Below are positions 95 to 22,499 of a stretch of DNA of 22,499 bases, one piece after another. The position numbers were made by a program, and so were the translations under genes. Every line of letters begins with the position of its first letter. Position 1 is the stretch's first letter. The notes below the pieces were generated by a model. It had not been told where the DNA came from. It saw nothing but the letters and a program-made list of their open reading frames with translations, and did not search any database. Source of the stretch: a virus; the IMG/VR virus record IMGVR_UViG_3300042287_000351, positions 1 to 22,499 of that record, one strand, 5' to 3'.

Positions 95-2398
95 TTAGTG
101 GCCATCACGAAGATTGTGTGCAAGGGTTGGAGGTGCTTTCAAATCAATACTAAGTTTAGTAGTGTTCTCCATCAAATCCTGGACAATCCTGGCCGCTTCT
201 TCTGATCTGTCGTGTTCTACCTCAATAACTAGCTGATCATGGATCTGTGCGCATACCCAGCCTCGTATATCTAGTTCTTTGAACTTTCTATTAATAGCCA
301 ATGCTGCACGGTTAACTATTGATGCGGCAAGACCTTGAATCTGTACGTTACAAGAGTTATTTAGTCCGTTAATATAGTCTCTACTAAGGTTTTTAATTTG
401 ATCTACTCCGTATTGTCTTTCCATCTCTTTCTTGATATTCCAATCAAGTAAGTCATCGCCGATCTTATCATAGATAGCTTTTACTTTAGGAAGATGTCGA
501 ATACGACCAACTTGAGTACTAACATAGCCTTTTTCTTTGGCTTGCTTTTTAGATCTTTCCATCCACTTCTTAAGTTCAGGAAACCCGTTTAAGTAACCAT
601 CAACAAGTTTTTTAGCTTCTTTAGTAGGAATTCCAAGAGTCATACCGAGTGCATAAGCTCCCATACCATATGGAATACCTAGAGCGTAAGCCTTTGCTTT
701 ATTTCTTAACTTAGGTTCAAGCTTACGAAGAAAGTTAGGTGCTTTTTTATCTGGGGAATACTGACCTAACTTCTCTGTTTTGATTGCAATAGTAGAATAG
801 AAGTCCCAGTTATTTCTAAATATATCTTTTAATTCTTCATCACCAGATACGTGAGCGAATGTATGTGGCTCAAGTGATTCATAATCGCAGTCTACAAATA
901 TGTTACCTTCTTCATGAATAAAGAATGCTCGAATCAAGTTATTGTATTCAATTACAATTGGTTCATCATCACCTTCTTCTTTAGGTCTAGGAAGCTGTTG
1001 GGCATCTGAGCCATATCGGCCTGATACTGTGCCGTGTTGTTTATAATAAAAGTAGTATCGGCCATCTTCTTGAGCATCTAAGAAGCGATCCATGTAAGTA
1101 CTTTTAATCTTAAGTAGTCTATTGTAGATACGTAAGTTCTTTGCCCATTCGTATTTACCTGCTATTGATTGAACAGTATCGTCATCAAATTGAGGCTTAC
1201 CTGTTTTTGTAGTAGACAATGGTTTAATACCTAATACAGCAAACGCGATTTCACCAAGTTGATCTTTAGACTGGATATTGAAATAAGCTCCGTCATTATC
1301 TTCTCTCCATAACCTCATACTAATTTTCATACTAATGTCTCTATCTAATACAGCGGCATCACCATGAAGTAGAAAATGTTTAGCAGAACATTCAGGAAGC
1401 CTCATCAATGCAGACTTAGTTACACTATACTTACCAGTTCTAGCAGATTGTTCTAGTTCAAACTTCATTTCTTTAATTAGCTCTTGAGCAAATGTACCTT
1501 TGTTATTTGGTGGATATGCGTCTTGAGCTTTATATACTACCCATGCCCTAACATCTGGATTCTTGAGTAGCTCTTTTGTTACTGATTCAGCATACTCTTT
1601 TAGCTTTTCTATAATTTTAGCACGACTAGATTTTATAAGTTCCATATCAAGTTTAATACCAACTTGTTCCATAGGAATAGTGACCTCTTTATAGAGTGGC
1701 ATTACTTCATCTTCAAAGAAAAACTTTTCAAGGTTCTCATCTTTAAGTGTTTTGATAAAATGATTATAGACTCTAAGAGTTAAGTCAGTATCTGCTGATG
1801 CGTATTCTGAAAGTAGTTCAAGGTCTGCTTTCCATATCTCATAATTCTCACGTGTTATCTGACCACCATTTCTTTTTATAGATTCTTTAAGAGCGATTTG
1901 CTCTTCATTTGCAGCTTTTTCTACATCTAGACCAATATCTTTTTGAATCATCTTAGCGATGTCTTTAAGACCAAATGCAGAACCTCCCATAAAGCCTGCG
2001 CCTTCTTCTTTTACTGTATGAACAAGAAGTATCGTATCTACATAAAGACTCGATAACAAATCTACACCATAAAAACACTTAACGAATTTAACGTCAAATG
2101 ATGCGTTATGCATGATTAGTTTTTTACCAATAAGTAGAGAGATTGTTTTCTTTGCAAGATCATGAGCTAGTTTACCTTCAATAACTGCATCTTGAAGCTC
2201 TTCATCTTTGAATATCATAGTTGGCATATAGTATCCTTTACCAACTTCACCAGAGACAGAAAAACCAATGATCTTACCTTTACGAGGATTAAGACTATTG
2301 GTCTCAGTATCAAATGCAATTATTTCACACGACTTTATATGTTCGATAAGATCTTTAAGTTTATCTATCGAATCAACTGTAACATAACTTTTATTCAT
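95..2398 (-). CDS. polA: Family A DNA polymerase with 3'-5' exonuclease
   Basis: Replicative DNA polymerase of the Pol I (family A) type, 767 aa, without a 5'-3' nuclease domain; a separate gene at 6597 supplies that. The DEDDy proofreading site is complete: D30-x-E32, D102 in HNASFD, and Y199/D203. The polymerase motifs, compared with E. coli Pol I, are R461 in TVSGR (R668), motif A with D505 and E510 (D705, E710), motif B with R565, K569, L573 and Y577 (R754, K758, F762, Y766), and motif C H720-D721-Q722 (H881, D882, E883). Two points are unusual: Leu at the 762 position and Gln for the second acidic residue of motif C. Both metal-binding aspartates are kept, so it should be active. The ATG follows the previous stop by 6 nt. 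A second, shorter family A polymerase lies at 10048-11343. Confidence 0.95.
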   Translation of the reverse strand: MNKSYVTVDSIDKLKDLIEHIKSCEIIAFDTETNSLNPRKGKIIGFSVSGEVGKGYYMPTMIFKDEELQDAVIEGKLAHDLAKKTISLLIGKKLIMHNASFDVKFVKCFYGVDLLSSLYVDTILLVHTVKEEGAGFMGGSAFGLKDIAKMIQKDIGLDVEKAANEEQIALKESIKRNGGQITRENYEIWKADLELLSEYASADTDLTLRVYNHFIKTLKDENLEKFFFEDEVMPLYKEVTIPMEQVGIKLDMELIKSSRAKIIEKLKEYAESVTKELLKNPDVRAWVVYKAQDAYPPNNKGTFAQELIKEMKFELEQSARTGKYSVTKSALMRLPECSAKHFLLHGDAAVLDRDISMKISMRLWREDNDGAYFNIQSKDQLGEIAFAVLGIKPLSTTKTGKPQFDDDTVQSIAGKYEWAKNLRIYNRLLKIKSTYMDRFLDAQEDGRYYFYYKQHGTVSGRYGSDAQQLPRPKEEGDDEPIVIEYNNLIRAFFIHEEGNIFVDCDYESLEPHTFAHVSGDEELKDIFRNNWDFYSTIAIKTEKLGQYSPDKKAPNFLRKLEPKLRNKAKAYALGIPYGMGAYALGMTLGIPTKEAKKLVDGYLNGFPELKKWMERSKKQAKEKGYVSTQVGRIRHLPKVKAIYDKIGDDLLDWNIKKEMERQYGVDQIKNLSRDYINGLNNSCNVQIQGLAASIVNRAALAINRKFKELDIRGWVCAQIHDQLVIEVEHDRSEEAARIVQDLMENTTKLSIDLKAPPTLAHNLRDGH

Positions 2399-2404
2399 AA
2401 CTAT

Positions 2405-2599
2405 TTATTGTTGGTTTTCGTCTTTCTTTTTATAAGGAAACAATTCATTTAGCTTTTCTCTGCGTCTATTACATCCGCAGTCTTCTTCACCCATAGCATG
2501 CGCAACTTTTTCTGCTAGAACATCTAATTTAAGAGCGTGAGTAACTTTAGCAATAGTGTCTCCCAAGCCTTTTGATTCTTCACTTGTCTTGTTTTCCAT
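2405..2599 (-). CDS. Small conserved-looking protein with Cys-Gly-Cys motif
   Basis: A 64-aa hydrophilic protein of unknown function. It has a charged N-terminus, a helical middle (GLGDTIAKVTHALKLD and AEKVAHAMG), then DCGCNRRREKLNELFPYKK near the C-terminus. The CGC followed by an Arg/Lys-rich helix looks like a real conserved motif and I believe similar small proteins occur in other phages, but I cannot name a family. It might bind metal or nucleic acid, which is inference. The ATG lies inside the end of the upstream membrane-protein gene (20-nt overlap) and the stop is 6 nt before the polymerase start, so translation is probably coupled. No signal peptide or membrane segment is seen. Confidence 0.65.
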   Translation of the reverse strand: MENKTSEESKGLGDTIAKVTHALKLDVLAEKVAHAMGEEDCGCNRRREKLNELFPYKKKDENQQ

Positions 2600-2783
2600 C
2601 TATATCTTTTTTTATTTTTTCTAACATACTACCAGCAGACATAGCTAATATACTAATTTGTGCCCAAACATCTTCTAATTCTCTTTTGAGTTTAGACATT
2701 TTTCTCCACTGTATAACTTGTATAAGCATTAAAATTAAAGTAACAGTTAAATATACGTACTCTGAATTTATCGTAACCGTCAT
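2580..2783 (-). CDS. Small single-pass membrane protein
   Basis: A 67-aa protein with a hydrophobic segment at about residues 9-26 (YVYLTVTLILMLIQVIQW), a basic RKMSKLKR stretch right after it, and a helical tail with heptad-like spacing ending in KKDIDGKQDK. The positive-inside rule suggests a short N-terminus outside and the tail in the cytoplasm. Its ATG overlaps the upstream stop as ATGA, and its 3' end overlaps the next gene by 20 nt, which is typical of a translationally coupled phage operon. It is unrecognised. A lysis accessory or membrane anchor role is possible, but nothing in the sequence decides it. Confidence 0.6.
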   Translation of the reverse strand: MTVTINSEYVYLTVTLILMLIQVIQWRKMSKLKRELEDVWAQISILAMSAGSMLEKIKKDIDGKQDK

Positions 2784-2992
2784 GTATATGTTTTATCAAA
2801 TATAAAATCTTCTTCCGAACTTCTGTCTTTTTTCTTTGTAGTACCTTTTATGTACTCTGGATCATATGGGCAGTGCCTGCACTTTGAACCACAACAAGAT
2901 CCTCGTTGTAAATGGAAAAGAGTGGTAAAAACCACCCTTCCATATTCTAAATAGTAGTGAACTCCTTCTATGAATTCTTTAGGCGATTTCAC
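2780..2992 (-). CDS. DUF5522-type Cys-rich small protein
   Basis: A small protein with the signature RGSCCGSKCRHCPYDPEY preceded by VHYYLEYGRVVFTTLFHLQ. This matches my memory of DUF5522, a short Bacteroidota family ending in CCGxxCRHCPY. Four closely spaced cysteines suggest a metal site. The function of the family is unknown to me. I choose GTG at 2992-2990 (70 aa) because AGGAGG lies 5 nt upstream. An in-frame GTG at 3007 would give 75 aa. The 5' end overlaps the last codons of nrdJ, and the stop overlaps the next start (ATGA). The link with a ribonucleotide reductase is suggestive only. Confidence 0.75.
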   Translation of the reverse strand: MKSPKEFIEGVHYYLEYGRVVFTTLFHLQRGSCCGSKCRHCPYDPEYIKGTTKKKDRSSEEDFIFDKTYT

Positions 2993-4829
2993 AAGCACCT
3001 CCTGCACAGGCTAATTCACCTTTTTGATCAGTATTATCTTCTATCTCAAGTACTTTACTAATATCTACTTCATGAAGCTTACCGACGATTTCGTTAAATT
3101 TTTCTTCAGTAATAGTTTCAAAAGGAGCTTGAACATATGAACCGTTATCATAAGGTAAGCAAGATAAGGCAGTGTAGTTATTTCTATTTGCCCATGCCCA
3201 TTCACCAACTTCTGACCACTCTTCTGGTTTAAGAGAGATTGTTACAGATACGTTGTGAGTATTACGACCTGTTCTATGTCCTGGTTTAATCCATTCTTTA
3301 TGTAGCTTTTCAAGTCTATGAAGTAGATCAACCGCTGATTCAGACCTTGTGATTGCTCCTTCAGGTGCTTTTTGTGGAACAGATACTACAGCTTGAGATT
3401 GAGGTTTAAAGTATTCGTCTTCTATCAATTCAGGATGATAAATAGAAAGGTATGTATAAAGAGCTTCGTTTTTACCAAGTCTCATTCTACGAATGTAGAA
3501 ATTATCATGCCAAGCGTGTACACCAGATGATGTTCCTAGAACCATTGATGTTGTTCCTGAAGGTTTAACTGTTGTACATCTTGCAGCTTTATTAACTCCG
3601 ATAACTTTTGCAACTCTTTCGTTTTCTTCTTTTACTATTTGAGCAGCTTCTTTCATATTCAATTTTAATACTGCACCTGAAGCAATGCCAGTCATACCGA
3701 TGCCAATCAATGCATCTTTCTCTGTTGTTTTTTTCCAAACATCACGAAGATAATGAAAGTCTGTATATGAAGCTTGAAGTGTTCCAATAAATGCAGCCGC
3801 TTTAACTCTATTGTTTAGATCTTCTTGAGACTCAAGATTAGATACGTTAACTTCACACAAGTTACAGAATTGGAATGGTCTAAGTGCAATCTCAGCGCAT
3901 GGATTAGTTCCCCAATCTTTATCGTTAGTTAAGAAAAAACCAGGTTCACCTGCGTTAGACAATTCAATCTTTTTCCAAAGCTCCATGAACTCTTCTTTCT
4001 GAATACGATCACGTAGTATAGTCGCTGAATTATTAGCTCTTCCTCTTTGAGGGTTTTGTTCCCACCAATTACCAAACTTAGATGTAAGCATCTCTTCATC
4101 ATTGAAAGAGAATAGGCTAATCAATGCTGCACGACGAATACCTCCAGACAATACTGCATCTGCAATATAGCAAATAATATCATGGCATTCAATAGGCTTC
4201 AATTTATCTCCAGTATCTTTACGATCAAGAATCTTTTGTATCTGAAATAGACACTCTTTTAAAGGTTCTGGTCCAGGTGCTTTACCGCCAGCAGTAATTA
4301 ACATTGCACCTTTAGGTCTAACATCACGAAAGTCAAATTTAGGTCTAGGTCCACCTACAAGATATGACTTCATTAATATCTTGATTGCATCAGCCCAACC
4401 TTCAATAGAGTCTCCAACTAAAAATCTTTTTTCTTTAATTGGCTTAATGATCTCAGGAAGTTGATCTACGTGATGATGTTGAACTGAATATCCTACTCCG
4501 CAACCTCCTAAAAGAAGAAACATTATTTCTGAGAATACACGCCAGTCATCAATAGGAGCAAAAGAGCAGTTAAATATACGAGCATTATTAATTTCAATGG
4601 GCTTACCCGCAAACTGCATTGAGCGCATTGACGGAAGAATCTTTTTATCATATACTAGTTTATATGTTTCTTCAATTTCATTAAACAATGAAGGAAACTT
4701 TTGTTGATGCATTTCCTTATTTCTTGTAACTATTTCATTCCAGGATTCACGCCTTTTAAATTCTGGTAAATACTTTGCGTATTTGTTGTAAACTGTAATC
4801 TCAGATAAGATTTGTTGCGTGATGTCCAT
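2979..4829 (-). CDS. nrdJ: Class II (B12-dependent) ribonucleotide reductase
   Basis: Adenosylcobalamin-dependent ribonucleotide reductase of the monomeric type, which makes deoxyribonucleotides for phage replication without oxygen or a second subunit. Key residues: C88 (NCSF) and C322 (QFCNL) as the reducible active-site pair; N309, C311 and E313 in NPCAEI as the substrate and thiyl-radical site; PSGTTS at about 423-428; and C608/C613 (ACAGGAC) at the very C-terminus as the shuttle dithiol. At 616 aa it is shorter than the roughly 740 aa of the Lactobacillus enzyme but keeps all catalytic residues. The ATG is preceded by an A-rich leader (AAAAAAGAA) within a 113-nt gap holding a hairpin. The 3' end overlaps the DUF5522-type gene. 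The host must make or import cobalamin. Confidence 0.93.
   Translation of the reverse strand: MDITQQILSEITVYNKYAKYLPEFKRRESWNEIVTRNKEMHQQKFPSLFNEIEETYKLVYDKKILPSMRSMQFAGKPIEINNARIFNCSFAPIDDWRVFSEIMFLLLGGCGVGYSVQHHHVDQLPEIIKPIKEKRFLVGDSIEGWADAIKILMKSYLVGGPRPKFDFRDVRPKGAMLITAGGKAPGPEPLKECLFQIQKILDRKDTGDKLKPIECHDIICYIADAVLSGGIRRAALISLFSFNDEEMLTSKFGNWWEQNPQRGRANNSATILRDRIQKEEFMELWKKIELSNAGEPGFFLTNDKDWGTNPCAEIALRPFQFCNLCEVNVSNLESQEDLNNRVKAAAFIGTLQASYTDFHYLRDVWKKTTEKDALIGIGMTGIASGAVLKLNMKEAAQIVKEENERVAKVIGVNKAARCTTVKPSGTTSMVLGTSSGVHAWHDNFYIRRMRLGKNEALYTYLSIYHPELIEDEYFKPQSQAVVSVPQKAPEGAITRSESAVDLLHRLEKLHKEWIKPGHRTGRNTHNVSVTISLKPEEWSEVGEWAWANRNNYTALSCLPYDNGSYVQAPFETITEEKFNEIVGKLHEVDISKVLEIEDNTDQKGELACAGGACEIA
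2998..3003 (-). promoter_or_regulatory. Shine-Dalgarno AGGAGG inside nrdJ
   Basis: The minus strand reads AGGAGG, then TGCTT, then GTG (2992-2990). It is the only full consensus ribosome-binding site I noticed before a start in this window. It lies within the codons for the redox-active C-terminal Cys-Ala-Gly-Gly-Ala-Cys of NrdJ, so one stretch serves both as protein code and as a start signal. It supports the 2992 start of the DUF5522-type gene. Confidence 0.55.
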
Positions 4830-12031: not shown

Positions 12032-15000
12032 TTATACGTTTATAGAGTTCCAAATATTTGCCGCATCTCTTAGTGCTTCAGCATCTACTTCTGCAGGTGG
12101 TCTATTTGGATATTTAGTTCTGACTCCAAAACCATTCCATTTTTCATACCATATTTTTGCATATGCATTAGCATCTAAAGCTGATTCGAATCCTTTTCTT
12201 TTAAAACTAGAAACTATTTGTGAAATAAAACTTTCAAAATTAATAAAAGATACAAATGCTTTACATAAATTAGTACCTCCTTCTTTAGCTACAACATATC
12301 CATTATGTAATTGAGGATTAAATTCCCAACCCCCGGACGTAATATCAAATCCTCCAAAATTATAATTAAAACCTCTAAAATTCTGCTCTATTTTTATAGT
12401 AGCTAAAATTGCTTTTGTTAAAACGTCTCCATATATAGCTTTTAATTTAGGACCTTCAACATTAGGATCTATAATAGTTCTTTGGAAAGATTGTTTTTTG
12501 CCTGTCCATCCTTTATTTAAATTTGTATCTACATAAGGATCATTACAAGTTCCTGATGTTGTTGGATACAAAACGTCTTGGGAAACTCTACTAGAATTGA
12601 CTCCAAATACTCCAGTTGCGCTATCTACTTTAACAACACTTCCAGAAAATGCTGTTTTATCTTTTAGATAAATCATATTTGCTCTAACAGCAGTATTCCA
12701 TTGATTATTTTCTATAGTATGAGTTAATCCTACCATAACAAAACCAACATTATTAATATAATCTTGAGGAGCTCCTGGTATTTTTCTTGTAGTATAAGTA
12801 TATGGAAGTAACTGATCTGGTACTGTAAATGCTTGGCCCATTCCTAGACCTGATATACCATCTGTAGTAAAGTTAACAGACACAGGTATCATTGCTGCAG
12901 CCCTAGTTGCGTAGTCTTCATTTTTTATTAAAGACATTTTTTCTATATAATAGTTTGTAGCATGAGCTACGCTAGTTTGAGAAGGGTTTATCTTACTATA
13001 AAAATCTGATATAGTACTATTAAATTGTGCTGCTGATATTTTTAATGAATCATTATCTTTTTTACCGCTCCCTGTTATTTCTCCTCTAATAGTTACAAAT
13101 CTATCTGAATATGCTGTATTCACAAATCCAAACGAATCTCCATTAGTTGATAGTGTTGCTTTATTAGATGAATTAGCATTAGCAGAAATTGCTAACATAT
13201 TAGAAAGTTTACTACTAACTTCAGATTTTATTTCTAAAGATTTTGCTATAGAAAACTTACCAGACAAAGGAAGTTCTGTAGTATTACTTTTAGGAGTTAC
13301 TTGCTCTTCACTAGATAGGGACGGTATAAACTGATCATCAACTATTTGAAATGTATTTGCAGCATCATTATAAGAAAGTCTAAATGCATTAAAGTTACCT
13401 AAAGATTTATTTACATCAGAAAGTATTTGTTCAATGTATGTTTTTAAGTATACACTATTAGTTCCATCTTTATAACTATATTGCTGTGCTAAGTTAACTA
13501 GGTAATCTATATTCAATAAAATATTCATTACTTTTCCTCTGTATATATTTCCTGATTCTTTTTGAGCCATTGAAGGAAATAAAAATGAGTTTAAAGCATT
13601 TGCAAAATCTGAATCTGTTTTTTCATCAAATTTTAATCTAGGAAGCGTTCCACTTAAAAAATCATCTGTTTTAGGATTAAATAAAGGAACAATTTCTTTA
13701 CTGCCGCTTGTAGCTTGTATAGCTTTATTATCATTAGTTAGTATATCTTTATCAAATAGTTCTTTGTAATCTTCAAAACTACCTTCAAAAGGAATTAAAC
13801 ACGTCCAAGGATCTGTACTTAATTGTTTTGTATTTGTAAGACAAAAATTTAATTCCGGATTAAAATCAATATATACTAAAGGACTTTGAAATTTGCCAAT
13901 TTCTTTACTATCATATATAGTACACGCGTGATTTAATATCATTAAAATTAAACCCAAAGGAATATAAACAGGATGGTTAGTAGATGTTCCTTTAATTATT
14001 TCTTGGTTTATTTGATATGGTATTACATAGGCCTTTAATAATTCTTCAAAATCAACGGGCTGTAAAAAACGTATATCTTCTTTATTTCCTAATAAATTAG
14101 TAGCAAACCCATATTTAGAATAAATTTGGAATCTTTCTAGGGGATCCATTTTTTTATCTGTGGCATAATCTGAGTCTTTTATTTTTGTACTTTTTTTATT
14201 TATTAACTCATTTATAAAAGAAGAAAATACTCCTGTTGAAAATATTTGATCTAAAAAAGTTTTATCTTTAGCAATCTCTAAAACGTATGTAGTTCTAGCT
14301 ATTTCTAAATCAGGAGTTCCAGTTTTATTTATAGCTTTATTTAGTGCGTGTAATTGTATTGTTCTAAGCATTATTTCTAATGTAGACTGATAATTTAATG
14401 CTTGTTTTATTTGTACAGAAATTGCGTCTTGTTCATTTTTTTGTTCTTCTAAATCAGTAAAATTATTAACATTTTGAGATATTTGATCCCTATCTCTAAG
14501 AGTTTGTCCATATGCTGTTAATAATAAATTATTATCTTCTGTTTGTATATTTTGAAATAAACTACTATCATTAAAATCAATATTAATATCTATTTCTGTT
14601 TCTTGATTATTAGCATCTGTTGCTTTTAATTTAAATACTAAATTAAATGAATAGCTAAAATTAGGCCATGATTGTGTTTGTGAAAAATAATCTTTTCTAA
14701 AAGATAATCTACTATCTTGAAATACATCATTTTTAAATATTAATTCTATTATATCTTTTCTAGTTTTAGAATCTGATACAGTCCAAGGTATTCTTACTCT
14801 TATATAGTATTCTTTACCTAGTGCTTTTGAATTTTTATAATTTATTTGATATCTATATAATACTACATCTCCAGTTCCTTTTCCGTAAATACTCTCACCG
14901 CCAGCATTTTTATTTAATATCGGAGTTTCTTTATTAAAAATGTCTTGAAAAAAACCGAAAGTTGTATCTGGTCTATCATTTAGATTAGATAAAAAATATC

Positions 15001-16366
15001 TTTCTTTTAATTTAGATATATCTAAAGATATTCCAGAATAACTTTGTTTTTTATCTAAAATAAGATTTAGTCCACTAATATAATATCTACTACTTTGAGG
15101 TATAGCATAATCTAATCTGTAAAATTTTTTAGCGTCTAAAGTCTCATACTCAGTAGTACTATTTATTTTAAAATTAGTATCGTAAGGAAAAACAACTATA
15201 TTATTTCCATCCTCAACTAATTTTTTTCTTAATTGAGTTTTTGCTCTTTCACTATCTACATTATTATTTGCAAATGCTATAGCTTTTAAAGAGCTTTCAG
15301 GTAAAGTAAAAAAATACTTAGCAGGAAAAACATTCGGGATTTCTAAACCTAAATCTGAAACTAAATTTGATAATATATCATTAGAAGGCGGGTCTGGTGC
15401 GAATGGATTTGTATCAACAGGTACTTGACTAGCTGCATTTGCTTTAGCAATTTCAATTAAAGTATTATTTAATTGAATTATTTCCTCCTCTAATAAATTA
15501 GGTAAAGTTCCTGAATTATTGATTTTAATAGCGTCACCCAATACTCCTAAAGCCATTAATCTCAATGTACAATCATAACCCCCATCTTGAGTATACGTAA
15601 AATTAAAATTTGTACAAATCCCTAGCATTGCATCATAGTTACCTTCTGTCTCTCTTGAATTTTTAGCTATTTTAATTTGAATGTCTTCTTTGTTTAAACC
15701 TTCTTCAAAAGGATCTATACTATATAATTCAGTAGAAATTATTTTATTTGGGTCTCTTTGATACGTGTTTTGGGGACTGGGATAATAAAAAGTATGTCCC
15801 CATTCAAGAAACATAGTAAATCCTAGTTTAAAATATAGAGCATCAATTATATCCAATTGATTTTTGTCCCAACATTTAAAATTAATTGTAGCTGCTCTTA
15901 CAGAACCTAGTCTACCTTGGGTATCAATAGTAACATTAGTAATACCTGGCATTGGTTTGTAACCAAATTGTTGTACTTCACTCTTACCTAGCATTCCATA
16001 AGCTCCATCATAATCTAGACCTGATCTTAAACCATAAGAATTATTATTTAGATATTTTGATGTACCTCCAAATAAAACGTATTGTTTAGCAAGACTAGTT
16101 GGATTTGCTATATATGAACCAAATAATTGTACTGGTGATTCTATATTAGCACCTATTATATTTTTAAAATAATTTATATCTCTATAATTATTAATATTAA
16201 CGGAAGAAACTAATCTTATCCAAGCACTTTTATTAGCTAGATATAAAATATTATCATTATCTCTAGAGTCTTGAGTATTTTTATTAGACCTAGTCTCTAA
16301 TTGGTTTAATACCCAAGTAGGTAATTTAGTACCAATAATGTTAGATATCTTATTATCTAGTGGCAT
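12032..16366 (-). CDS. Large baseplate hub protein with possible lysin domain
   Basis: At 1444 aa this is the largest gene here. The N-terminal part (about 120-290) contains ITNVTIDTQGRLGSVRAATI and LDIIDALYFKLGFTMFLEWG, the pattern I associate with contractile-tail hub proteins that cap the tube. The middle 900 residues are Asn/Lys/Ile-rich, beta-type and unrecognised. The C-terminal 140 residues look like a lysozyme or glucosaminidase fold: AILATIKIEQNF with a candidate catalytic Glu near 1327, FNYNFGGF, then VSFINFESFISQIVSSF and YAKIWYEKWNG. If so, the tip would cut peptidoglycan during entry, as T4 gp5 does. That assignment is tentative. The ATG is 2 nt after the gp53 stop. It is very AT-rich: the 60 bases from 14161 are 20% G+C. 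Confidence 0.75.
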   Translation of the reverse strand: MPLDNKISNIIGTKLPTWVLNQLETRSNKNTQDSRDNDNILYLANKSAWIRLVSSVNINNYRDINYFKNIIGANIESPVQLFGSYIANPTSLAKQYVLFGGTSKYLNNNSYGLRSGLDYDGAYGMLGKSEVQQFGYKPMPGITNVTIDTQGRLGSVRAATINFKCWDKNQLDIIDALYFKLGFTMFLEWGHTFYYPSPQNTYQRDPNKIISTELYSIDPFEEGLNKEDIQIKIAKNSRETEGNYDAMLGICTNFNFTYTQDGGYDCTLRLMALGVLGDAIKINNSGTLPNLLEEEIIQLNNTLIEIAKANAASQVPVDTNPFAPDPPSNDILSNLVSDLGLEIPNVFPAKYFFTLPESSLKAIAFANNNVDSERAKTQLRKKLVEDGNNIVVFPYDTNFKINSTTEYETLDAKKFYRLDYAIPQSSRYYISGLNLILDKKQSYSGISLDISKLKERYFLSNLNDRPDTTFGFFQDIFNKETPILNKNAGGESIYGKGTGDVVLYRYQINYKNSKALGKEYYIRVRIPWTVSDSKTRKDIIELIFKNDVFQDSRLSFRKDYFSQTQSWPNFSYSFNLVFKLKATDANNQETEIDINIDFNDSSLFQNIQTEDNNLLLTAYGQTLRDRDQISQNVNNFTDLEEQKNEQDAISVQIKQALNYQSTLEIMLRTIQLHALNKAINKTGTPDLEIARTTYVLEIAKDKTFLDQIFSTGVFSSFINELINKKSTKIKDSDYATDKKMDPLERFQIYSKYGFATNLLGNKEDIRFLQPVDFEELLKAYVIPYQINQEIIKGTSTNHPVYIPLGLILMILNHACTIYDSKEIGKFQSPLVYIDFNPELNFCLTNTKQLSTDPWTCLIPFEGSFEDYKELFDKDILTNDNKAIQATSGSKEIVPLFNPKTDDFLSGTLPRLKFDEKTDSDFANALNSFLFPSMAQKESGNIYRGKVMNILLNIDYLVNLAQQYSYKDGTNSVYLKTYIEQILSDVNKSLGNFNAFRLSYNDAANTFQIVDDQFIPSLSSEEQVTPKSNTTELPLSGKFSIAKSLEIKSEVSSKLSNMLAISANANSSNKATLSTNGDSFGFVNTAYSDRFVTIRGEITGSGKKDNDSLKISAAQFNSTISDFYSKINPSQTSVAHATNYYIEKMSLIKNEDYATRAAAMIPVSVNFTTDGISGLGMGQAFTVPDQLLPYTYTTRKIPGAPQDYINNVGFVMVGLTHTIENNQWNTAVRANMIYLKDKTAFSGSVVKVDSATGVFGVNSSRVSQDVLYPTTSGTCNDPYVDTNLNKGWTGKKQSFQRTIIDPNVEGPKLKAIYGDVLTKAILATIKIEQNFRGFNYNFGGFDITSGGWEFNPQLHNGYVVAKEGGTNLCKAFVSFINFESFISQIVSSFKRKGFESALDANAYAKIWYEKWNGFGVRTKYPNRPPAEVDAEALRDAANIWNSINV

Positions 16367-18541: not shown

Positions 18542-20941
18542 TTATTTTCCTGTTTTACCATCAAGATTAGGAACTCTTTCTACTCTATATTCATTTTCTC
18601 TTTTACTATCCACAACATAGAAATTACCATTAATATAAATAGTTTCTTTTGTAGGTTTTGCCATACTCATATTATCTACTGGTGGTGCTGTAGTATTTGA
18701 TGTAGAGTTTTTAACTTGAGAATTAGCGGCGTTTGGTCCTACTGAAACTGGTTCAAAATCAGATCCAACTGATCTTATTTGATCTGCTATATTTTTAGAA
18801 CCAGATCTTAAACTTTTAATAAACGCATTATCTATTTGTCCTAATGCTATATAATCTAATGCATCAACTATTTGATATGCAGCCTCACCAATAAACTCTA
18901 CAGCGTCGGCAAAAAACCCTTGTACTTTTTTTAATATTGCATTTACATATGTGGGATCAGATAACTTATTTACAAAAGCTTCTATTTTTTCAATAAGCTT
19001 AGTTTTTTCTACAAAGTCAACTATTGATTGTTTTATTTTATCTATAAAAGTAGCAATTTTTTCTTGTGTAGAAGCATTAACTAAATTTTGATATGCTTCT
19101 TCACCAATAGCAGCAGTTAATTCTTTTTGTGTTTGATATCTTTGTAAACCTAATTGAAGTTGTTTTCGTGCGTTATCAGTATCTTTAGCACCTAATAAAG
19201 AAAGAAGCTCTTGTCTTTTAAGCATTTCACCCATTTGATCACGACTCATACCAAATGCTGATGCTAAAGATTCTGCTTGTATACGATTAAGCTTTAAAAA
19301 GTCATTAGCAGATCCTACTTGTTTTGTTATTTCTGATGCTGCTGTTGCTAAATCATTATTTAAAAATGCTTCACGAGCTTTAGCTAGATTAATATCTTTA
19401 CCTGTTAATAATTGTGCTTCAAACTCTTTTGATATAGAAGATTCAAAATCTAAAAATGAGTCTGCTATAGAGTCTAATTGTTTTAACTCCATACCCATAG
19501 CTTTAACAGTAACTAATGATTTAGTTAAGTTAGCTGGATATTTTGCAAATTGAAGACCTAAATAACCCCCTAGACTAGTAGCCTCTTTTAATATTTGTTT
19601 ATTTTGAAGTTGAATTCCAGTAGCATCTTTTAATCCTTCAACTTGAGCTAAAACACTTTTAACTACATCTTTAGAACTTTGTCCTGTAATAGTAGACGCC
19701 TCAACTATTTCTTTTCTAGTATCTAATTCTAAGCCAGCAATGTCTTTCAACATTATATTAGTCTCAAGCTGTTCTGTAGTAAGTCTATTAACTACTCCTA
19801 ATTCATTAGATAACTCTACTTGGGATAATAAAAGTTTTTTCGAATTAGTAAAAATATTACCTGAGTTAAAGGATATATTTTGAAACTCTCTATTTAAAGC
19901 TCTTGCTTCTGACGATGATAGATTTAAATCTCTACCTGCTTTTATTATTTTATCATCAACTCCAATTATTAGATCTAATACAGCAGAAAAACCGTCTATT
20001 AAACCGCCTATAAGTCCACCTACTAAAGGTATATTTCTAGCCAAACTTGATAAATTAGAAGTTAATCCTCTAACTATATTAGAAGAATCCTCTGTCATAC
20101 CTGCTAAGAAATTTCCAGCTGAAGCAGCAGCGTCTCCAACTTTTGTAAGGCCTTTTTCAACAAGTTTATATGCCCCAACTACTGCACCAGTAAGTAAAAT
20201 AGGATCTTTAAATGTTTCAGAAATAGCGTCTCCTATTGTTGAAGTTACAGCTTTAAATTTATTTCCAAAAGTAAGACTCTCATTTTCATCTTTGAGATCC
20301 CTAGCTTTTTCAACCATTTTTTCATACGCCTTAGTACCAAATCCTAATGTTTGAGATATTTTTCCTAAAGCCAATCCTGTAAATCCTACTTCTGATTTAA
20401 TCTCTTTTTCTAATTCTAATTCCTCTTTTAAAAAATTTACATTTTCTGCAGCTACTTTATTTGATTGTAAAGCTGCGGCATAACGCATTTGATCTATATT
20501 AAAATCTTGTTCATTTTTTCTGATCTTAGTTTCTAAAATTCGTAATTCGGCACTTAAACTATCATATAATGCTGTATTTCCTTGCAACCTGGCTCTTCTT
20601 ATCTCATCTTCTTTTGTTGCTCTAATACCTAAATTTTTTACATAATCTTCTGATTCTTGTTTTTGAAGATCAGACATAGATTGTTGAAGCCTATTTAATT
20701 TGATTTGAGTTAACGCTTCTTTTTCTTTACCTTTTTGAAACTCTTTTTGAATGTCTTTAGTATTAATAGACTCTTTATTAAGAGCTTTAACTTTTGCAAT
20801 AGACGAGTCTCTTAAATCATTTATTTGAGATAAAAGATTTATAGATTTGTTTAATTCTTGATTAGAATTTCCTAAACCTTTTCTATAGTCTCTTATTGAA
20901 GATTCTAATTCTTTTCCTATATCTAATTGATCTTGTACCAT
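18542..20941 (-). CDS. Tail tape measure protein
   Basis: A 799-aa protein that sets tail length and occupies the tube lumen. It has the usual plan: a long charged coiled-coil N-terminus (about 1-185), hydrophobic Gly/Ala-rich segments near 245-330 (DPILLTGAVVGAYKLVEKG; IPLVGGLIGGLIDGFSAVLD), more helices to about 700, and a polar C-terminal tail (NSQVKNSTSNTTAPP) ending in a short strand-rich piece. At about 0.15 nm per residue, tail length would be near 120 nm, which is an estimate only. It directly follows the gp26-like gene and the 85-codon frame, the standard place for a tape measure after its chaperones. A near copy of the AT element lies 17 nt before the ATG. Confidence 0.88.
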   Translation of the reverse strand: MVQDQLDIGKELESSIRDYRKGLGNSNQELNKSINLLSQINDLRDSSIAKVKALNKESINTKDIQKEFQKGKEKEALTQIKLNRLQQSMSDLQKQESEDYVKNLGIRATKEDEIRRARLQGNTALYDSLSAELRILETKIRKNEQDFNIDQMRYAAALQSNKVAAENVNFLKEELELEKEIKSEVGFTGLALGKISQTLGFGTKAYEKMVEKARDLKDENESLTFGNKFKAVTSTIGDAISETFKDPILLTGAVVGAYKLVEKGLTKVGDAAASAGNFLAGMTEDSSNIVRGLTSNLSSLARNIPLVGGLIGGLIDGFSAVLDLIIGVDDKIIKAGRDLNLSSSEARALNREFQNISFNSGNIFTNSKKLLLSQVELSNELGVVNRLTTEQLETNIMLKDIAGLELDTRKEIVEASTITGQSSKDVVKSVLAQVEGLKDATGIQLQNKQILKEATSLGGYLGLQFAKYPANLTKSLVTVKAMGMELKQLDSIADSFLDFESSISKEFEAQLLTGKDINLAKAREAFLNNDLATAASEITKQVGSANDFLKLNRIQAESLASAFGMSRDQMGEMLKRQELLSLLGAKDTDNARKQLQLGLQRYQTQKELTAAIGEEAYQNLVNASTQEKIATFIDKIKQSIVDFVEKTKLIEKIEAFVNKLSDPTYVNAILKKVQGFFADAVEFIGEAAYQIVDALDYIALGQIDNAFIKSLRSGSKNIADQIRSVGSDFEPVSVGPNAANSQVKNSTSNTTAPPVDNMSMAKPTKETIYINGNFYVVDSKRENEYRVERVPNLDGKTGK

Positions 20942-20968: not shown

Positions 20969-21226
20969 TTACTTTTTGTTTTTTACTTTAGAAACAAATG
21001 TAGGTTCTTCTAATTTAGATTTTACAACATCCGGGATTTTGAATTTACTCATGTCAGTCTTGTTTGTAACTTGCTGACGATCTTGATTTCTGATCTCTTC
21101 TACTTTTTCTAGATAGTCGTTGATCTTTTTAAGATTAAAACGTCTTTTTGAAACGTCCATATTCCAAACCTCAGAATAGGTAAAGCCCCCACCTCCGTGA
21201 TAGGTGAGCTCAAATACCTCTGTCAT
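20969..21226 (-). CDS. Tail assembly chaperone second frame (T-like)
   Basis: An 85-codon frame lying between a gp26-like chaperone gene and the tape measure. It starts MTEVFELTYHGGGGFTYSEVWNM, followed by helices (RRFNLKKINDYLEKVEEIRNQ) and a basic end. This is the position and the kind of sequence of the second half of tail-chaperone fusions (lambda gpT, Mu gp42), which bind the tape measure. The frame is open upstream of its ATG back past the slippery T run at 21255-21263, in the register reached from the upstream gene by a +1 or -2 shift. The fusion would be about 344 aa. An ATG at 21226 could also allow separate translation; no good ribosome-binding site is visible. Confidence 0.75.
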   Translation of the reverse strand: MTEVFELTYHGGGGFTYSEVWNMDVSKRRFNLKKINDYLEKVEEIRNQDRQQVTNKTDMSKFKIPDVVKSKLEEPTFVSKVKNKK

Positions 21227-21230
21227 GAAT

Positions 21231-21263
21231 GCGGACCTATAGTCCGCTCCCGGGAAAAAAAAA
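21231..21263 (-). promoter_or_regulatory. Probable programmed frameshift site
   Basis: On the minus strand nine T (21263-21255) are followed by the spacer CCCGGGA, then a perfect 6-bp stem GCGGAC / GTCCGC with loop TATAG (21247-21231). The loop holds the TAG stop of the upstream gene. The upstream frame reads GAA TTT TTT TTT CCC GGG. A slip of +1 or -2 gives TTC CCG GGA and continues without a stop into the 85-codon frame. A GC-rich stem 7 nt after a homopolymer in such AT-rich DNA is striking. Alternatives are RNA polymerase slippage on the run, or a one-base sequencing error in it. Confidence 0.65.
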
Positions 21264-22004
21264 TTCTGCGCTCATAGGCAGATCTACTTTTACAATCTCT
21301 CCATCAGATAGGGAGACATCTATTTTCATTATGACATCCGGAGTTATAGAAGCTATGTATTTTCGAAGTTCGATAGAATCCATGGCTAAAAGGTGTCCAT
21401 CATCAATAAAATCTCTAACTGATTTAACTGAATAGTCTCCATTAATAGCTACAATCTGGTGCTTTAATCTAGTTGAAATACCTCCGGCTTCTAGACCTAG
21501 GTTCTTTTTAACACCTTTTATTTCATCATCTATTTTTTTATCGTCAACTACAGTTAGTAGTTTAAAGGTTACTGTATTTCCTGATTTAGGAAGTTTAAAT
21601 TCAAACTCATTTTTATTACTAAATAAAGACCAATCTGGTTGTTTATACTCTAAATTTTGTAGGTCTGCAACTACTTTTTCTTCTTCACCCGTATTTGGGT
21701 TTTTATACATAAAAGAATAGTCTTTACCATAAGATAAGATTCTAGCCGCGATCAGTAAGCCATTCCTGTCACCCAAGGTTAGGTCTTCATAATTAATTGG
21801 TGATTTTATTAGACTCTTGAGCATCTTCTCAATGGCGAGGCCCTGGCGCAACAGGTTAACGTTTGTGAGGATGTCTTCCTCTTTAGCCGTCATATATTTC
21901 ATCTCTACTTGGCCAGATGATAGCGCATTTTCTTTTGGGTATAAAAGACCTTTAGAAGGTAGGTCAATTAATTCTGTTGGTACTGTAAACTTTTGTTCAG
22001 ACAT
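21237..22004 (-). CDS. gp26-like baseplate/tail assembly chaperone
   Basis: A 255-aa protein matching the T4 gp26-type family: VPTELIDLPSKGLLYP at the front, VEMKYMTAKEEDILTNVNLL, then LTLGDRNGLLIAARILSYGKDYSF at about 77-100. The C-terminal part is beta-rich and ends EFFFPGSGL. It lies just before the tape measure, where tail chaperones are expected, and its last codons hold the slippery run that would fuse it to the next frame. It is thus likely the G-like half of a G/GT-type pair. The ATG follows a 95-nt gap containing a terminator for the tail-tube gene and two AT elements, so it probably begins a new transcript. Confidence 0.85.
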   Translation of the reverse strand: MSEQKFTVPTELIDLPSKGLLYPKENALSSGQVEMKYMTAKEEDILTNVNLLRQGLAIEKMLKSLIKSPINYEDLTLGDRNGLLIAARILSYGKDYSFMYKNPNTGEEEKVVADLQNLEYKQPDWSLFSNKNEFEFKLPKSGNTVTFKLLTVVDDKKIDDEIKGVKKNLGLEAGGISTRLKHQIVAINGDYSVKSVRDFIDDGHLLAMDSIELRKYIASITPDVIMKIDVSLSDGEIVKVDLPMSAEFFFPGSGL

Positions 22005-22050: not shown

Positions 22051-22075
22051 AAAAAAAGCCTCTAGTAATAGAGGC
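22051..22075 (-). terminator. Intrinsic terminator after tail-tube gene
   Basis: On the minus strand GCCTCTA, loop TTAC, TAGAGGC, then seven T. This is a perfect 7-bp stem with a tetraloop and a U tail, 24 nt after the tail-tube stop. It separates the highly expressed tube gene from the chaperone and tape-measure genes. Confidence 0.9.
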
Positions 22076-22099
22076 CTTTCTTTTAAGTATATAATTATT

Positions 22100-22499
22100 C
22101 TAGTAGTTAAGTACGCAATAATCCATTCCTATTGACAAAGTCAATTCAGTTGGATCAGATGTTGACCAGTCATAGTTTCCAAAAGTAGCTTCTTTAATGA
22201 AAGCACCTTTAATAATCCACTCACTTACAATATCACCTACTGGACCTAAGATAGACAAGTTAAGATCTTTCTTATAAAAGTCAGAATAACCATCACGACC
22301 AGTTACTGATTCATGGTGAAGACGTACCCATTCCATTACAGCTTGTTGTCCTGAAGGAGATACTGGGTTATAAAGTGCTAAGCTCATATCTCTCCATTCA
22401 GCTTTACCTTTTATCTTACGATAAACGTTGATATGGTCGAGTTTGATCTCATTTAAAGTTACACCTGGTGCGTCTGCCTTCTTAATCATATAAGAAGGA
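22100..22499 (-). CDS. Tail tube protein, gp19-like (5' end cut off)
   Basis: The major tube subunit of a contractile tail. The frame stays open past the first visible ATG (22489) to the window edge (codons for P, S, Y precede it), so the gene is truncated here. T4 gp19 is 163 aa and about 132 are present. Typical parts are INVYRKIKGKAEWRDMSLAL, SGQQAVMEWVRLHHESVTG and the C-terminal DYCVLNY; GPVGDIVSEWIIKGAF and LTLSIGMDY form the conserved beta-barrel. It is followed by a strong terminator, as expected for a gene needing high output. The sheath gene would lie just outside the window. Confidence 0.88.
   Translation of the reverse strand, partial: PSYMIKKADAPGVTLNEIKLDHINVYRKIKGKAEWRDMSLALYNPVSPSGQQAVMEWVRLHHESVTGRDGYSDFYKKDLNLSILGPVGDIVSEWIIKGAFIKEATFGNYDWSTSDPTELTLSIGMDYCVLNY

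Follow-up and report, generated by a model that had tools for sequence, protein, structure and literature searches.

Does the gp26-like gene of this virus simply end at its own stop codon, or is it joined to the short frame behind it by a programmed ribosomal shift, and in which direction would such a shift run? A first-pass annotation of the window, by which we mean the whole stretch of 22,499 nucleotides analysed here (a 22.5-kb virus record), had proposed that a recoding signal fuses a gp26-like chaperone to a downstream T-like frame. Passages of a review in NAR describe G-T frameshifting as widely conserved except in T4, with -1, -2 and +1 shifts in different phages. Two citing papers (PMC10885494 and PMC12846349) indicate, in the passages available, that Vladimirov et al. 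(2022) identified the chaperones of T4-like phages; the former cites that work for two genes, one short and one long, that take the place of frameshifting, and the latter credits to it poly-T -1 signals in T4-like chaperone genes. The T4 genes concerned appear, from our own comparisons, to be 26 and 51. Frameshifting by -1 in the chaperone genes of T4-like phages is already known.

Gene context and structure of the gp26-like protein

The gp26-like ORF is located on the minus strand (21237..22004), as are the features of the locus given below, and encodes 255 aa. It matched Pfam PF12322 (T4_baseplate; E 1.1e-11) with 45.3 bits, as compared with a curated cut-off of 24.5, and PHROG 150 with an E of 2.5e-15. 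Upstream lies the gene for a tail tube protein (gp19-like; 22100..22498; PHROG 4542, 2.5e-17), which is cut by the window end, and a terminator-like hairpin, consisting of a 14-pair stem and then a T run, stands between the tube and gp26 genes (22051..22082). Downstream, an ORF of 85 aa (21226-20969) is followed by a 799-aa ORF (18542..20941) that had no convincing Pfam or PHROG match. Judging from its position and from annotated relatives, this ORF likely encodes the tape measure protein; in Flavobacterium phage immuto and Listeria phage LIS04, the annotation places tape measure directly behind the chaperone locus. The order of genes, with the tube gene upstream (by PHROG) and the tape measure gene downstream (by position and annotated relatives), is that of a G/GT chaperone locus. 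Elsewhere, the window carries a family A DNA polymerase with a 3'-5' exonuclease (95-2398; PF00476, 2.1e-65), in a phage with a T4-type tail, and DnaB-type helicase, RecA-like and gp32-like genes are found near it. A 1444-aa ORF in the tail/baseplate gene cluster (12032-16366) had no Pfam or PHROG match.

The AlphaFold model of gp26 had a pLDDT of 91.7. When aligned to 994 PDB chains, the model gave its best score with 3klu (YqbN; Z 5.7 over 89 residues), which we take to be a prophage tail chaperone, followed by 2ob9, the HK97 tail assembly chaperone (Z 4.7 over 80 residues), and then by a score of 3.6, all of them weak (Z <8) and below the level showing kinship. The matches were confined to the N-terminal 94 residues, and Foldseek alone returned nothing for gp26 at E <= 0.001. 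These model-based scores are weak singly, yet they agree in direction. On the basis of Pfam, PHROG and this model, we annotated the ORF as the putative short form (TAC-N) of a gp26-like tail assembly chaperone.

The junction between the two frames

Read on the minus strand, the end of the ORF consists of nine T (T9; 21263-21255), the 7-nt spacer CCCGGGA (21254-21248) and a perfect 6-bp hairpin (21231..21247), in which GCGGAC (21247-21242) pairs with GTCCGC (21236-21231) and the loop TATAG holds the TAG stop (21239-21237), all as the first-pass annotation had described. The downstream frame is +1, or equally -2, relative to gp26 and is open back through the T run to a TGA at 21274-21272, which bears out the earlier reading of an 85-codon frame that either shift would reach. 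One four-base step at TTTC gives a fusion of 344 aa, and recomputing this length returned the value proposed before. The candidate shift site TTT TTT TTT CCC occupies 21252..21263 and was assigned by a UUU-Y motif and codon conservation. The +1-frame C-terminal (T/gp51-like) domain occupies 20969..21253, would contribute 94 aa beyond the slip to the predicted long form (TAC-NC) and was assigned by conservation and hhalign.

Conservation of the +1 frame in the nearest relatives

We scanned viral contigs for relatives from the window and used the best 80 of 255 loci. In 78 of these 80, the junction read TTYTTYTTTCCC, exactly 25 nt, then ATG (ATGAC); the other two were L058 and L062. A second scan, started from L058 (best 80 of 228 loci) and covering largely the same contigs, showed the pattern in 77/80, the remaining three being L419 together with L343 and L344, which lie on the same contigs as L058 and L062. 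The 0-frame stop was found after codon 251, 252, 253, 254, 255 or 256, and in seven nearest loci a stop (UAG or UAA) stands directly behind CCC. In contrast to this variable stop, the +1 reading retains the form P-x-x-x-Y-[RK]-x-x-F, as in PGADYRSAF, PSADYRSAF, PGQDYRSIF, PGSEYRKEF, PPQEYRSQF and others. Since the loci cannot be treated as independent (L002-L006 share one junction sequence), we counted over the 24 distinct spacers. Variation at the third position of the +1 frame was 0.417, as compared with 0.161 at the first and 0.135 at the second, and among pairs of spacers differing by a single base, 6/6 were synonymous in +1 and 1/6 in frame 0. These data suggest that the +1 spacer is a translated frame, upstream of the earliest start codon in the downstream ORF. 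The slip codon was TTT in 78/78 loci of the window clade, as compared with 374 TTT to 187 TTC elsewhere in the same genes, and the codon after it was CCC in 78/78. The slip codon, the spacing and the stem look selected.

Conservation in wider relatives

Two wider scans were started from immuto (best 80 of at least 599 loci) and from Microcystis phage Mel-JY01 (best 80 of at least 600). We parsed 240 of 244 loci; L001 is a copy of the window, and the others ran off the sequence end (L200 and L229 among them). The gp26 gene was followed by a +1 continuation of at least 90 nt in 236/240 parsed loci. In L144 and L180 the continuation runs up to the contig end with the domain visible, and the two split loci, L058 and L062, are without it. 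A +1 continuation of at least 150 nt was found in 229 of the 231 gp26 genes for which sufficient downstream sequence was present, versus 19 of 758 other ORFs of the same loci; in the other frame, 23/758 of these control ORFs continue. The controls are mechanically listed ORFs of at least 100 codons rather than checked genes. The C-domain was conserved in 43 representatives (alignment A1), and this comparison shows conservation of the +1 frame at the protein level; a mixed alignment (A5) seemed misaligned in the fragments and was set aside. In immuto there is no start codon before the C-domain core, and the annotation has nothing for the C-domain beyond a hypothetical protein of 36 aa. By comparison, the locus has what distinguishes a G/GT-type pair, namely two overlapping frames apparently joined by a programmed shift.

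The C-domain model was helical with a pLDDT of 77, and it had no PDB match at E <= 0.001 and no PDB sequence match at E <= 1. Fourteen of the 43 C-domain members in A1 matched Pfam DUF6760 (best E 3.4e-5), a family known from contractile injection systems. Contractile injection systems may carry the same chaperone pair; a search for this link in the window record and 14 controls gave no match.

The proposed slip site and direction of the shift

To the 238 of the 240 parsed loci with a +1-type junction we added L250, L251 and L252, giving 241 +1-type cases. In all 241 the overlap contains UUU-Y, an in-frame UUU with U or C as the next base. The T run is T6 in 74 cases, T7 in 116 and T9 in 7/241, the last being the nearest copies L002-L007 and the more distant L073, and no run exceeds three in 44. 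The cases with short runs include immuto (TTTCTTTGG), Streptococcus phage GXN1 (GAATTCTTTCGT) and L015/L053 (TTCTTCTTTCCC). These data point to the UUU-Y codon, not the T9 run, as the conserved signal.

The first-pass annotation had named lambda (-1) and Mu (-2) as precedents. If the mechanism were that of Mu, the same fusion would arise by a -2 shift on the T run and contain one extra Phe. Such a shift leads to the identical frame, and re-pairing of the P-site tRNA two bases back at a Phe codon is possible in the window and in 197/241 cases, including the common sequence of the window clade. However, it is impossible at Phe codons in 44/241, among them the cultured Flavobacterium and Streptococcus phages (TTTCTTTGG or GAATTCTTTCGT), so that differing mechanisms would be required within one conserved family. 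Under a looser rule admitting any codon, +1 was possible in 241 and -2 impossible in 43. A +1 slip from UUU to UUY fits all cases, while -2 and T-run slippage fit a part of them. The stop directly after CCC in seven nearest loci, set beside +1 shifting at CCC_UGA as described in passages of the NAR review, was likewise counted for +1. Of the two shifts named in the first-pass annotation, +1 and -2, we therefore favour +1 and consider -2 improbable.

Separate translation of the C-domain and other alternatives

A further explanation is that two separate proteins are made, the 85-aa frame starting at its own ATG (21224..21226), a possible internal start inside the C-domain frame, with translation coupled to the nearby gp26 stop. 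This ATG lies 10 nt beyond the stop, and each of the 76 window-clade loci examined has an ATG where the C-domain begins, so that separate translation is possible in the window clade. The C-domain also occurs as a separate ORF in L058, L062 and L419, suggesting that fusion may not be indispensable. On the other hand, the nine codons ahead of the ATG are kept as +1 protein, and both domains stand in one chain in T4 gp51. An ATG before the conserved core was found in only 20/151 wider relatives, versus 76/76 in the window clade; between slip and core, 92/151 have no ATG, GTG or TTG and 39 have only GTG or TTG (11 loci were omitted from this count, 10 being incomplete and one, L084, lacking a recognised core). 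We regard separate translation as no more probable than the -2 shift.

In the three loci with a separate C-domain ORF, the site takes two forms. In L419 (IMGVR_UViG_3300021247_000520, 2240-3155), gp26 ends with the slip codon lost (TTC CCA) and overlaps a homing-endonuclease-like ORF (NUMOD1 domain, 9.5e-6), the frameshift site having been invaded, and the C-domain follows downstream as its own ORF (MDDTYRKILPMFPGPEYR...). In L058 and L062 (approximately 4241-4330), a 66-nt insert carrying a TAA and a predicted hairpin (-10.1 kcal/mol) lies between two copies of TTTCC at the slip site. The two loci show 0 differences in 75 nt at the insert, versus 62 in the 1160 nt compared. Behind the insert the C-domain is in frame 0, and ribosomes hopping from TTT-CCT to TTT-CCA would produce a fusion of normal length. 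The insert is possibly a bypass element, or simply marks a separate gene.

A run of nine T is long enough for polymerase slippage, and transcriptional slippage on T9 could alter the frame of the mRNA. Since T9 is present in only 7/241 cases and the +1 continuation is kept in the 44/241 without a T run longer than three in the overlap, we rejected this explanation, which is very unlikely. It is hardly conceivable that the T run forms a terminator or attenuator with the 5-bp stem ahead of T9 in the window, a reading we rejected as this stem is found in 9/80 nearest loci and is not conserved. Homopolymer miscalls can produce out-of-frame pairs, but a sequencing error or decayed gene has a negligible chance of being the cause and is refuted for the family by its relatives, the arrangement being kept in 78/80 nearest loci, in 24 distinct junctions and in cultured phage genomes.

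The hairpin as a lineage-specific element

With G-U pairs allowed, the stem is complete in 60/78 nearest loci but in 9/24 distinct spacers, the other 15 being without a full stem. In each of the nine distinct spacers encoding ADYRSA, all six pairs are retained, as compared with a mean of 0.9 spacers when the sequences were re-drawn synonymously, and nine was reached in 0/2000 re-drawings. The covariation score was 0.194 versus 0.100 in shuffled alignments, with 0/500 shuffles as high, and paired changes occur at wobble positions (GCG..TCC to GCC..TCG; GAC..GTC to GAT..ATC). The number of pairs changed on both sides showed no excess (3 versus 2.8 in shuffles), the local folding energy of the region was ordinary in single-sequence folding (z -0.77), and a search of known RNA families gave six matches, all below the gathering score. 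From the pairing and covariation tests, the hairpin seems to be an accessory under selection in one lineage rather than a required part of the signal. Of the elements named in the first-pass annotation, neither T9 (7/241) nor the lineage-specific hairpin proved to be the conserved signal.

Relation to -1 frameshifting and to T4 gp51

A scan with cyanophage gp26 (best 80 of at least 598 loci) showed that 78/80 loci continue in -1 from a T run ending in TTTTTTC, the other two being cut by the sequence end. All eight further annotated phages continue in -1: S-PM2, Citrobacter phage Ci1, Stenotrophomonas phage BUCT608, Aeromonas phage Ah1, Vibrio phage K567 and S-H34 at T_TTT_TTC, and Vibrio phage D495 and Serratia phage Kevin at variant sites. 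S-CAM8 and Vibrio phage Bakedbeans likewise use -1, and Listeria phage LIS04, Bacillus phage SP-15, Streptococcus phage GXN1 and an uncultured jumbo phage (L250) use +1. Nine annotated records comprised five with +1, two with -1, Aeromonas phage phiAS4, in which no such C-domain was found, and a jumbo phage record (L253) that was left out of the count. In Synechococcus phage S-SCSM1 (L246), near position 3184, the continuation is in +1 where close cyanophage relatives use -1, with a few extra bases past the stop. This is either a natural change or a sequencing error, and it breaks the rule of direction within the -1 half. In S-PM2 (L335, 2220-2393) and other cyanophages, the product annotated as "gp51, baseplate hub assembly catalyst" is the -1 continuation of gp26.

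The +1 and -1 (cyanophage gp51-like) C-domains are homologous (hhalign probability 78, E 1.8e-5), and the -1 C-domain matched the end of T4 gp51 (probability 85, E 6.2e-6 by profile; 5e-5 by BLASTP with the S-PM2 domain). The +1 profile (A1) gave no direct match to T4 gp51, and the homology of the C-domain to the T4 gp51 C-terminus was obtained indirectly, through the -1 profile. T4 gp26 and gp51 are themselves related (E 2e-6). T4 gp51 is thus a two-domain protein encoded in one frame by its own gene. When 23 gp26/gp51 proteins were aligned, the two Phe residues encoded at the slip site fell at one place, with F248 and F249 in at least 90% of rows; immuto has Phe-Leu there and T4 gp51 Val-Phe. 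A quick tree of 59 representatives separated a +1 half from a -1 half, with four label changes versus 15.6 in shuffles, in a tree in which long branches meet between the halves, the root is not fixed and the window clade is L419 alone at a 72% identity cut.

Discussion

We consider it very likely, from comparative data, that the locus is a G/GT-type tail assembly chaperone pair with a programmed +1 shift that would yield TAC-N and TAC-NC. The proposal that a gp26-type gene ahead of the tape measure gene gives products of 255 and 344 aa by programmed shifting is supported by the constant spacing and the conserved +1 protein over 24 distinct junctions, by the 236/240 loci with a +1 continuation and by the T4 gp51 homologue. 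That ribosomes slip at all, how efficiently they would do so and what each product does is what we infer, as follows. Most ribosomes would read gp26 to its stop and release TAC-N (255 aa). In a minority, peptidyl-tRNA-Phe on UUU (21257-21255) in the P site would slip one base forward to UUC, with CCG read next, and these ribosomes would continue in +1 to give TAC-NC (344 aa, ...EFFFPGADYR...). The 6-bp hairpin, 7 nt past the slip codon, probably tunes the ratio of the products in the window lineage. By analogy with lambda, TAC-N would coat the tape measure protein and the C-domain would recruit tail tube subunits.

The proposed pair resembles lambda G/GT, as described in passages of the NAR review, in having a short product, a frameshifted long product and a location before the tape measure gene. 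The likeness drawn here is one of arrangement, and lambda shifts by -1 at its own site, in contrast to +1 at UUU-Y here. The tail assembly chaperones of T4-like phages are closer, having N- and C-domains homologous to those of the window and the same Phe-Phe position, whereas T4 uses two genes, cyanophages shift by -1 at T_TTT_TTC and the window clade would shift by +1 at UUU-Y. The earlier statement that T4 itself lacks such an arrangement holds insofar as T4 uses two genes, but T4-like phages do belong to the G/GT scheme, as the papers citing Vladimirov et al. (2022) report in part. The slip forward by one base in the P site on a re-pairing codon is shared with prfB (CUU_U), with CCC_UGA sites and with the tail gene of the haloarchaeal myovirus HSTV-2, for which passages of the NAR review regard +1 as very likely. 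In contrast to those cases, the shift here would require no stop codon in the A site, CCC, UGG or UAC usually following, and the gene is a chaperone gene of the T4 superfamily. The -2 tail frameshift of Mu leads to the same frame; unlike that system, -2 re-pairing at the Phe codon is precluded in 44/241 members.

The +1 form in gp26-type genes is absent from the passages available of PMC5009743, PMC10885494, PMC12846349, PMC8894135, PMC8785237, PMC12671138 and PMC11131426. Within a search that left most subscription literature, including Vladimirov et al. (2022), outside its scope, we found no report of this form, of its occurrence at UUU-Y, of its spread, or of a change of direction at one site.

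We think it probable that an ancient chaperone gene with one Phe-Phe shift site switched direction, so that half of the T4 superfamily shifts by -1 at T_TTT_TTC and half by +1 at UUU-Y, and that the T4 line escaped through a second, fused copy. Selection would thus act on the fusion and leave the direction able to change close to the base of the tree, and in a few relatives the site would have been invaded by a homing endonuclease or by the 66-nt insert, a possible bypass element.

These results bear on annotation, as the C-domain is entered as a 36-aa hypothetical protein in immuto and as a separate gp51 gene in S-PM2. T4 is the exception to frameshifted chaperones listed in the passages of the review, and nearly all wider relatives examined appear to shift at a single homologous position, some forward and some backward, so that the switch of direction lends itself to a direct reporter test in laboratory strains. 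The family is a large group of mostly uncultured T4-related phages, in which the shift would run opposite to the direction that the available passages report for T4-like phages.
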